NCBI GenBank assembly: GCA_947463885.1
Contig: CANHUQ010000004.1
Coordinates: 1 to 47,853 of the forward strand
Source of the DNA: Burkholderiales bacterium
GTDB lineage: Bacteria > Pseudomonadota > Gammaproteobacteria > Burkholderiales > Burkholderiaceae_E
Length of the DNA: 47,853 bases
Reading direction: 5' to 3'
The position numbers and the translations under genes are program-made. Below the pieces are notes generated by a model, which did no database searches, was not told the DNA's origin, and was given only the letters and a program-made list of their open reading frames with translations. Positions 44,410 to 47,034 of this stretch are shown piece after piece (the stretch's first letter is position 1; every line of letters starts with the position of its first letter).

Positions 44410-44438
44410 TTGAAAAGGTAAAAATTTCCATTTAAACT
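44410..44438 (+). promoter_or_regulatory. sigma70-type promoter TTGAAA-N17-TAAACT for the DUF6502 gene
   Basis: -35 at 44410-44415, 17-nt spacer, -10 at 44433-44438; ATG at 44445. Confidence 0.65.
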
Positions 44439-44444
44439 CGCGGC

Positions 44445-45392
44445 ATGTCGTCCGCTGAGCTTCCCTCACCTGTCCCAGATGGCGCCCATACGGGCGCCGT
44501 CGCAAGCGGCGCTGTCACGCCCGTTGCACTTGAAGCGCTGCAGGCCATCCTCGCGCCCCTTGCAAAGGTGGCGGTCGACCAAGGCGTGCAATTCGGCCAG
44601 ATGGAAGAACTGCTCAAGCAGGCCATGGTTCAGGCGGCGGTGCAGGCCACTCGCCAGGGCCAGGGCGAACCGGCTCCGGTCAGCCGGCTCAGTGTCATCA
44701 CCGGCATTCACCGCAAGGAAGTCAAACGCCTGCTCGAGCCGACCGCACCCGCGCAATTGGCGGCCAGCGTCACGCCGGCGGCCGAACTGTTCACCCGCTG
44801 GCTCACCTCGCGAGACTGGCAGGGCCCGGACGGCCAACCGCTCGCACTGCCGCGCCGCCCCCCGCCAGACGATGCGCCCAGCTTCGAGCTGCTGGCGCGA
44901 AGCATCACGACGGATGTGCACCCGCGCACCTTGCTCGATGAGCTGATCAGGCTAGAGCTGGTGGCCCACGACATGGAGACCGATCGGGTAGTGCTGCGCG
45001 CCGACAGCTTTGTGCCTGCCGTGCAGCTGCAGACCATGCTGGGATTCCTGGGTGCCAACGTGGGCGACCATCTGGCCGCCGCTCGCGCCAATGTGGCCGC
45101 CAGCCTGCGTTCGGCCCAGCAGCCCGACGCCACACCGATCCGCCCGCCGTTCGTCGAGCAGGCGCTGTTCGCAGATGGATTGAGCGCACAATCGATCACA
45201 GTCGCCATCGAGCAGGCACGCCTGTTCTGGGGCACCTTGCTGCGCACCCTGGCCCCGGAGCTCGAGCGACTCGAAGCCCAGGATCAGGCCGATGCACGTC
45301 CCGCTGATCAGCGGATCCGGATCGGTCTGTATTGCTACGCTGAACCCACCCATCCTCTCTTCTCAGAGAAGCCTTCAGGCCAACATGACTAA
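44445..45392 (+). CDS. DUF6502 family protein (putative HTH-containing)
   Basis: LAPLAKVAVDQGVQFGQMEELLKQAMVQAAVQ...VSRLSVITGIHRKEVKRLL, a conserved N-terminal pattern I associate with DUF6502. Confidence 0.75.
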   Translation: MSSAELPSPVPDGAHTGAVASGAVTPVALEALQAILAPLAKVAVDQGVQFGQMEELLKQAMVQAAVQATRQGQGEPAPVSRLSVITGIHRKEVKRLLEPTAPAQLAASVTPAAELFTRWLTSRDWQGPDGQPLALPRRPPPDDAPSFELLARSITTDVHPRTLLDELIRLELVAHDMETDRVVLRADSFVPAVQLQTMLGFLGANVGDHLAAARANVAASLRSAQQPDATPIRPPFVEQALFADGLSAQSITVAIEQARLFWGTLLRTLAPELERLEAQDQADARPADQRIRIGLYCYAEPTHPLFSEKPSGQHD

Positions 45393-46758
45393 ACGCTTGG
45401 TGACACCGCCCTTTCCTATCGCGACTGCAGACGGCGCCACACGCCCGATGCGTCGACGTGCGCTGGCCTCACTCGGCGGATTGGCGGTCATGGCCAGCGG
45501 CTGCGGCGGCTCGGGCGGCACGGGCGATCTGGCCGGCGTGGGCAGTGGCGGCACCGGTGCGGCCTTCGGGTTCGGCATGATTTCAGGCTTCGGCTCAATC
45601 ATCGTCAACGGGATCAAGTACGACGACAGCCAAGCCAGCGTCACGGACGATCTGGGCAACCGACGCGAGCTCGGCGAACTCAGGCTCGGCATGATCGTCG
45701 AGATTCGCGGGTCGGCCGATGACTCCACCAGCCTGGGCACAGCCAATTCCGTGCGCATCCTGAGTGAACTGAAGGGTCCGGTCACGCGCGTCACACCCAG
45801 CCAGACCACACCTGGAACCGGCGAACTGGTGGTGCTGGGCACGACCGTTCGGGTCATGTCTACAACATTCTGGCAAGACGCCAGCGGTCTTGTTGGCGTA
45901 GTCGACGGTCAGATCGTTGAGGTTTGGGGCTTCGCCGATCGCACCAGCAACACCATCACCGCCACGCGCATCGAGATCAAGCAGGCCTCGGACAACACCG
46001 CGACACGGCTGCGCGGTATGGTCACCGAACTCGTGCCTGGCATCCGGATCCGGGTTGGCGGCCAACAAGAGGGGTCTGGCAGCCAGGACTTCACGCTTGC
46101 CAATGCAACGGTGGCGGCCGGGGTGAGAGTCGGTGACCTGGTCAAGGTTCAGTACACCCCCTCGGGTACCACCAAGATCGCCACGAAGGTTGAAGTCGAC
46201 ACCTCTGCCGTACTCTCCAATGAAACGCGCGTGCGCGCCGAGGGTCGCATCAGTCAATTCACGTCAAAGTCCAACTTCAAGCTCGAGGGCTTGAGTGTGG
46301 ACGCCAGTAGCGCGAGTTTCAGCGACGGACTGGAATCACAACTGGCCAACGGCGCGCGAGTCCGGGTGGAAGGCCAAATGTTGGGCAGCAGGCTCAAGGC
46401 GAGCGTTGTGCGCTTTCGCGACGATGCACAGAGCAACTCCGGCTCCGGGTCGTCTGGCTCAGGATCGTCGGGCTCTGGCTCCGGGTCATCCAATTCCGGT
46501 TCCTCCGGCGGCAGTAGTTCAAGCGGCTCTGACGATTACGGCGATGAGGTCAAGGGTGTCATTGTCAGGTTTGCCGGCAAAGAGAGTTTCACCGTCAAAG
46601 ACCGTGCCAATCGCGAGTTCAACTTCGACGGCAGCAGCGCGACCGGCAAAGACGGCGGCCCCCTGCCGTCGCTGGGCATCGGCTCGCCGGTCCAGGTCAA
46701 GTTCACGGTGCAGGCCTTCGGTCTGCTCAAGGCCAACCAGATCCGACTGGACACCTGA
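45385..46758 (+). CDS. DUF5666-type repeat protein, probable exported lipoprotein
   Basis: N-terminus PMRRRALASLGGLAVMASGCGG (Tat-like/lipobox), repeated small beta-type units and a Ser/Gly linker; overlaps the upstream gene by 8 nt. Confidence 0.75.
   Translation: MTKRLVTPPFPIATADGATRPMRRRALASLGGLAVMASGCGGSGGTGDLAGVGSGGTGAAFGFGMISGFGSIIVNGIKYDDSQASVTDDLGNRRELGELRLGMIVEIRGSADDSTSLGTANSVRILSELKGPVTRVTPSQTTPGTGELVVLGTTVRVMSTTFWQDASGLVGVVDGQIVEVWGFADRTSNTITATRIEIKQASDNTATRLRGMVTELVPGIRIRVGGQQEGSGSQDFTLANATVAAGVRVGDLVKVQYTPSGTTKIATKVEVDTSAVLSNETRVRAEGRISQFTSKSNFKLEGLSVDASSASFSDGLESQLANGARVRVEGQMLGSRLKASVVRFRDDAQSNSGSGSSGSGSSGSGSGSSNSGSSGGSSSSGSDDYGDEVKGVIVRFAGKESFTVKDRANREFNFDGSSATGKDGGPLPSLGIGSPVQVKFTVQAFGLLKANQIRLDT
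46438..46533 (+). repeat. Imperfect Ser/Gly-coding low-complexity repeat
   Basis: SGSGSSGSGSSGSGSGSSNSGSSGGSSSSGS encoded in the DUF5666-type gene. Confidence 0.8.
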
Positions 46759-47005: not shown

Positions 47006-47034
47006 TTGAATCCGTCATCATCCTCGGGTAGAAT
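47006..47034 (+). promoter_or_regulatory. sigma70-type promoter TTGAAT-N17-TAGAAT for groES-groEL
   Basis: -35 at 47006-47011, 17-nt spacer, -10 at 47029-47034, immediately adjacent to CIRCE. Confidence 0.7.

Follow-up and report, generated by a model that had tools for sequence, protein, structure and literature searches.

What do two overlapping genes do together when both belong to families that are names without function? The original prediction for this locus, made on the window (i.e. the whole analysed stretch of 47,853 nucleotides), had placed the genes at 44445-45392 and 45385-46758, assigned them to DUF6502 and DUF5666, and proposed that a regulator or adaptor is paired with an exported lipoprotein, possibly within an undescribed envelope system. 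Here, we find it quite probable that the DUF6502 protein is an autoregulator, which would repress its own operon via a palindrome in the promoter and have as its main target the DUF5666 protein, an exported lipoprotein made of OB-like barrels. All the evidence for this reading is computational.

The DUF6502-DUF5666 gene pair

Both open reading frames, and their overlap, were confirmed on the forward strand. The first gene (ATG at 44445, stop at 45392) encodes a protein of 315 aa, the predicted DNA-binding autoregulator, which matches PF20112 at 44.1 bits (residues 31-217 against positions 7-190 of the 268 in the profile). The second (ATG at 45385, stop at 46758) encodes a predicted lipoprotein of 457 aa that matches PF18914 at 88.1 bits in four stretches, i.e. 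as a repeated domain. The curated Pfam cut-off is 27 bits for each of the two families, so both names stand. The genes share eight nucleotides (ATGACTAA, 45385-45392, forward strand) and their translation is likely coupled by this overlap. Neither PADLOC, nor sequence searches of solved structures, nor the literature searched provided a function for either protein. In that literature DUF6502 is mentioned nowhere, and DUF5666 no more than in passing. A defence system is without support because PADLOC gave no match to either protein. A toxin-antitoxin pair was rejected along with it, the second protein having an export leader and being predicted not to be cytosolic.

The pairing is conserved well beyond close relatives. 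DUF6502 was found in 38 of 250 genomes sampled at the level of the order and in 15 of 299 sampled at the level of the phylum; the corresponding numbers for DUF5666 are 41 and 24. Among 61 DUF6502 loci of Pseudomonadota, 44 have a DUF5666 match on the same strand within 3 kb downstream. At least seven of the remaining loci have a diverged partner that kept the leader and the GGTG motif described below and that scores under the HMM threshold, and one locus lacking a match sits at the end of a contig. Spacing was analysed in 80 named relatives, 60 of which have a scorable partner. The start of the second gene lies between -20 and +25 nt from the DUF6502 stop in 56 of these 60, and the two genes overlap in 43, most commonly by 4 nt (29/60). 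This adjacency recurs across families and classes of Pseudomonadota, in surrounding neighbourhoods that are otherwise different.

We searched for a conserved third gene around the pair and found nothing general. Genes beyond the pair vary from genus to genus, and the pair is therefore the unit. With no third gene conserved beside the pair, the notion of an undescribed envelope system is supported only in part. The candidates were an outer-membrane-like protein, at about five loci, and a flavocytochrome c sulfide dehydrogenase, at Zoogloea-type loci. In Zoogloea and at a few other loci (L032, L033, L036, L040, L047, L048, L054, L059, L070, L092), the dehydrogenase gene stands downstream of the pair in the same orientation, at some of them together with a cytochrome c gene. 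Two contigs recorded as Chitinophaga pinensis and Geobacter sp. (L047 and L052) carry a betaproteobacterial-type DUF6502 and operator and fall inside that clade of the tree; they are probably mis-binned MAG contigs. In the window, groES (47176) and groEL (47505) have a promoter-like site of their own, TTGAAT-N17-TAGAAT at 47006-47034, and their operon thus seems independent of the pair.

A palindrome in the promoter of the unit

Alignment of the DNA upstream of DUF6502 within genera revealed a common palindrome. A de novo motif search in 102 non-redundant upstream regions returned a 21-bp palindrome, AAATGGGAAAATTTCCCATTT, in about 79% of them, with a logL of 696 against 78-90 in three shuffled sets. 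When symmetry was not imposed, the search led to the identical palindrome, with a self-complementarity of r = 0.97. With a threshold of 12 bits, 76 of the 102 regions contain at least one site, and 23 contain more than one. Such sites are concentrated where DUF6502 genes begin: we counted 78 in 23 kb of upstream DNA and 31 in 1.11 Mb elsewhere. About half of these 31 outside sites are informative, many of them being upstream of operons headed by a DUF5666 paralogue. Operons of this kind partly explain the roughly one quarter of upstream regions that are siteless at 12 bits. For instance, 13 Rubrivivax-type loci have a DUF5666 paralogue ahead of DUF6502, and the palindrome precedes the paralogue instead. 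Three gammaproteobacterial loci have a second palindrome before the lipoprotein gene that follows DUF6502. The palindrome is nearly unique within genomes, since relaxed copies number one in the host and zero to four in 23 others, mostly at the DUF6502 locus. A literature search for the palindrome found nothing.

The predicted operator of the window is an imperfect 21-bp palindrome, AAAAGGTAAAAATTTCCATTT, at 44413-44433 (no strand assigned). It is the sole match in the host genome in a pattern search allowing up to 3 mismatches. It scores 13.9 bits when itself left out of training, which places it among the weaker sites, and the next best site in the window scores 4.6. Shuffling the upstream region 2000 times never produced this score, whereas at least one of 40 shuffles of the whole window did (maximum 16.3); the score alone is therefore no proof, and the position adds the rest. 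The palindrome fills the 17-bp spacer of a sigma-70-type promoter on the forward strand (44410-44438), formed by TTGAAA at 44410-44415 and TAAACT at 44433-44438, with 9 of 12 matches in a consensus scan. The original prediction made no mention of this promoter and its palindrome. The same spacing recurs in C-type relatives, where a -10 element stands at +20 from the palindrome in 18 of 34 cases (1% in the background) and a -35 element at -3 in 7 of 34 (0.4% in the background). In the A-type clade the palindrome covers the -35 region, not the spacer, and there are tandem sites upstream.

The -10 hexamer is followed 7 nt further on by the ATG of DUF6502 (44445), which coincides with the expected +1, and the mRNA is thus probably leaderless. 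The DUF5666 partner, in contrast, relies on a start codon that lies within DUF6502.

DUF6502 as the candidate regulator

The presence of the palindrome depends on that of DUF6502. As a negative control, we analysed DUF5666 loci from genomes lacking DUF6502, and none of the 12 has the palindrome; it is present at 2 of 7 orphan DUF5666 loci from DUF6502-bearing genomes. Secondary sites precede an orphan DUF5666 gene (L138), a second DUF6502-DUF5666 unit (L140) and the gene of a 130-aa exported protein (L141, L050), and a few more precede genes that could not be assigned. In a genome of the same family (G102), a DUF5666 gene diverges from the DUF6502-DUF5666 pair, and the DNA between them holds one site.

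Some of these neighbours deserve description. The 130-aa exported protein belongs to no Pfam family and carries the pattern CEKxSNRSxxSxDGxNL; it has the palindrome upstream at L141:3313-3850 and L050:5622-6152. Of 20 genomes searched, three have this protein and two of these the site, and Nitrosomonas oligotropha has three tandem copies. In Pseudomonas violetae (L104:7070-7835), a copy of the palindrome lies ahead of the gene for a secreted, Gly-rich protein that contains GEPGDDxGNHVG repeats, adjoining the DUF6502 unit. The host of the window has a second DUF5666 lipoprotein, which is short (L113:1892-2725, G000:C153) and has neither palindrome nor DUF6502 neighbour.

The AlphaFold2 model of DUF6502 has a mean pLDDT of 85.8, mostly above 90 in the helix-turn-helix (HTH) and winged-helix regions. 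The HTH-like stretch noticed originally is modelled as a pair of helices, at residues 79-86 and 90-97, in the SRLSVITGIHRKEVKRLLE region (residues 79-97, 44679-44735, forward strand). The model adds a second, winged HTH (residues 147-184, 44883-44996, forward strand), with helices at 147-154 and 160-169 and strands at 173-176 and 181-184. Further on, the model has a pair of long helices (195-225 and 248-282, 45027-45290, forward strand). In this region N205, D208, H209, N216 and E238 are invariant in the alignment of relatives, and it might be a dimerisation or signal domain. The protein aligns over its full length with 59 relatives. Its HTH went unrecognised by the HTH models of Pfam and NCBIfam, and sequence comparison with solved structures, by single protein or by profile, gave nothing credible. 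The fold search with Foldseek gave no significant match: the best were HetR-DNA complexes (E 0.063), and many other near-top matches were DNA-binding proteins. Judging from sequence and model, DUF6502 appears to belong to no known regulator family among those tested here.

The HTH and the palindrome vary together. Among 93 protein-operator pairs, operator position 8 covaries with HTH residues 89, 91 and 94, in the helix at 89-94. This position is mostly C when the helix reads x-RREV-T and mostly A when it reads HRKDVK. In a tree computed after removal of the HTH columns, the window is basal in a clade of 39 whose other members are C-type (37) or mixed (1), with support 100/99. Despite its membership in a C-type clade, the window retained an HRKEVK helix together with an A-type operator. 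One relative (L101) shows partial reversal in both helix and operator. The covariation rests on few independent events (one or two) and is thus supporting evidence only.

We propose that DUF6502, with its HTH, its winged helix and its long C-terminal helices, binds the palindrome at 44413-44433, most likely as a dimer. As the palindrome fills the spacer between -35 and -10, binding would exclude RNA polymerase and the DUF6502-DUF5666 transcript would be autorepressed. Some signal would release DUF6502, allowing the probably leaderless transcript to be made, and translation of the lipoprotein would be coupled via the 8-nt overlap. Its product would be a chain of five OB-like barrels anchored by a lipid in the envelope, presumably at the outer membrane. 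This arrangement resembles classical autorepressor operons, with the operator in the promoter spacer, the regulator first, the target second and coupled translation. It differs from them by a regulator that Pfam and NCBIfam HTH models do not recognise and by a target that is an exported string of OB barrels. Of the two roles originally suggested for the first gene, that of a regulator paired with a lipoprotein gains support from the predicted operator in the unit's own promoter, and that of an adaptor finds none. A Pfam family of unknown function would thereby be credited with a predicted function and linked to a target and a defined operator. A vague pairing becomes a directly testable regulatory module, present in several classes of Pseudomonadota and controlled by a short, well defined promoter.

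DUF6502 is probably a repressor rather than another kind of autoregulator. It might instead bind the palindrome as an activator or a two-way switch, e.g. by remodelling the spacer. MerR-type activators use a palindrome between -35 and -10, as would be the case here, and the tandem upstream sites of the A-type clade would suit activation too. Yet, MerR-type activation needs a spacer of 19-20 bp, whereas that of the window, like that of C-type relatives, measures 17 bp, the optimum; the MerR type was rejected on this account. Moreover, the palindrome overlaps the core promoter in the A-type and C-type clades alike. Activation thus seems rather unlikely. Less credible still, and in our opinion improbable, is that the palindrome serves another regulator, e.g. 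of the CRP/FNR type, and that DUF6502 does something else. The CRP-type consensus is AAATGTGA-N6-TCACATTT, which AAATGTGC-N5-GCACATTT resembles. But the site has 21 bp with an N5 core, not 22 bp with N6, and CRP/FNR sites are numerous per genome whereas this palindrome is rare; a CRP/FNR site was rejected on these grounds. Furthermore, the palindrome is tied to the presence of DUF6502 and varies with its HTH, which argues against any other regulator. Autorepression by DUF6502 remains our preferred reading.

The exported partner

The DUF5666 protein begins with an export leader (45385-45504, forward strand), RRRALASLGGLAVMASGC, which has a twin-arginine before the hydrophobic stretch and ends in the lipobox ASGC. 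The lipobox-like leader of the original prediction is real: Cys40 is invariant in 36 aligned relatives. From its sequence, with a signal peptide and a lipobox Cys, the protein of the window is predicted to be a lipoprotein; a cytosolic location is at odds with the leader and the clade-invariant Cys. A lipobox-like sequence is found in 42 of 60 partners and is often missing in the GGIGGTG clade. The twin-arginine is confined to part of the close clade. The leader of the window reads RRRALAS, compared with S/T-R-R-x-F-L-K for the Tat motif, and good RR motifs are found in Polaromonas-type relatives and in none of the Aquabacterium type. The partners of other relatives have a plain Sec-type signal.

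Behind the leader lies a GSGGTG motif (45541-45558, forward strand; GGTG at residues 55-58), which is invariant in 36 aligned partners and marks the DUF5666 proteins linked to DUF6502. GxGGTG is absent from all 12 DUF5666 ORFs of genomes lacking DUF6502, one of which has a doubtful frame. Several orphan DUF5666 proteins in DUF6502-bearing genomes have the GGTG motif, in up to seven copies. The partner sets were chosen partly by GxGGTG, and the contrast with DUF6502-less genomes is therefore the fair measure. That the two genes are neighbours by chance or mere convenience, with no functional link, is hardly tenable: DUF5666 genes are indeed common without DUF6502 and in a minority of cases DUF6502 has different genes beside it (L014, L017, L093), but the adjacency persists across classes amid differing neighbourhoods, the palindrome also precedes orphan DUF5666 genes located elsewhere in the same genome as DUF6502 (L138, L162, L165), and GGTG distinguishes the partners from the DUF5666 proteins of DUF6502-less genomes. 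Setting apart the GGTG-bearing, DUF6502-linked subset of DUF5666 provides a handle on the role of OB-barrel strings.

The repeated small beta-type units foreseen in the second protein are, in the AlphaFold2 model (m9457ab136861, pLDDT 78.7), five OB-like beta-barrels. Four follow each other at residues 60-127, 129-199, 207-271 and 282-344 (45562-46416, forward strand). A Ser/Gly-rich linker with pLDDT below 50 (residues 348-383, 46426-46533, forward strand) separates them from the fifth (residues 387-455, 46543-46749, forward strand). The fold matches are S1, cold-shock repeats and CusF. The chain resembles the bead string of ribosomal protein S1 (9gut, E 1.1e-9), and the units match CusF with a TM of 0.71 over the target. 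S1-like RNA binding is unlikely since the protein is predicted to be exported, and CusF-like copper binding was rejected, as the alignment has no conserved Met, His or Cys to serve as copper ligands. Among solved structures, most sequence matches involve the Ser/Gly linker and are compositional in origin.

HetR of cyanobacteria is an autoregulated dimeric regulator of a partly palindromic site, which has 17 bp in the hetP promoter and is a 21-bp palindrome in PDB 4hri, and it is released by the Gly-containing peptide RGSGR (HetR-PatS, PMC4649674). The likeness is that HetR is the best, non-significant, fold match of DUF6502 and that a Gly-rich motif comes behind the signal peptide of the DUF5666 partner. 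The partner differs by being a large OB-barrel lipoprotein lacking the RGSGR motif. Homology of DUF6502 to HetR was not supported, as the profile had no match in the PDB at E up to 10 and Foldseek gave E 0.063 with TM 0.28-0.30. By analogy, one might speculate that the GxGGTG stretch behind the signal peptide is itself the signal, i.e. that once released or left in the cytosol it acts on DUF6502 as PatS does on HetR. We regard this as a long shot. If it were true, the cell would sense the state of export or assembly of its own envelope protein.

Partners of one clade (L162, L081, L104, L111) carry the heptad GGIGGTG in a variable number of copies, up to seven, which recalls an expandable surface repeat.
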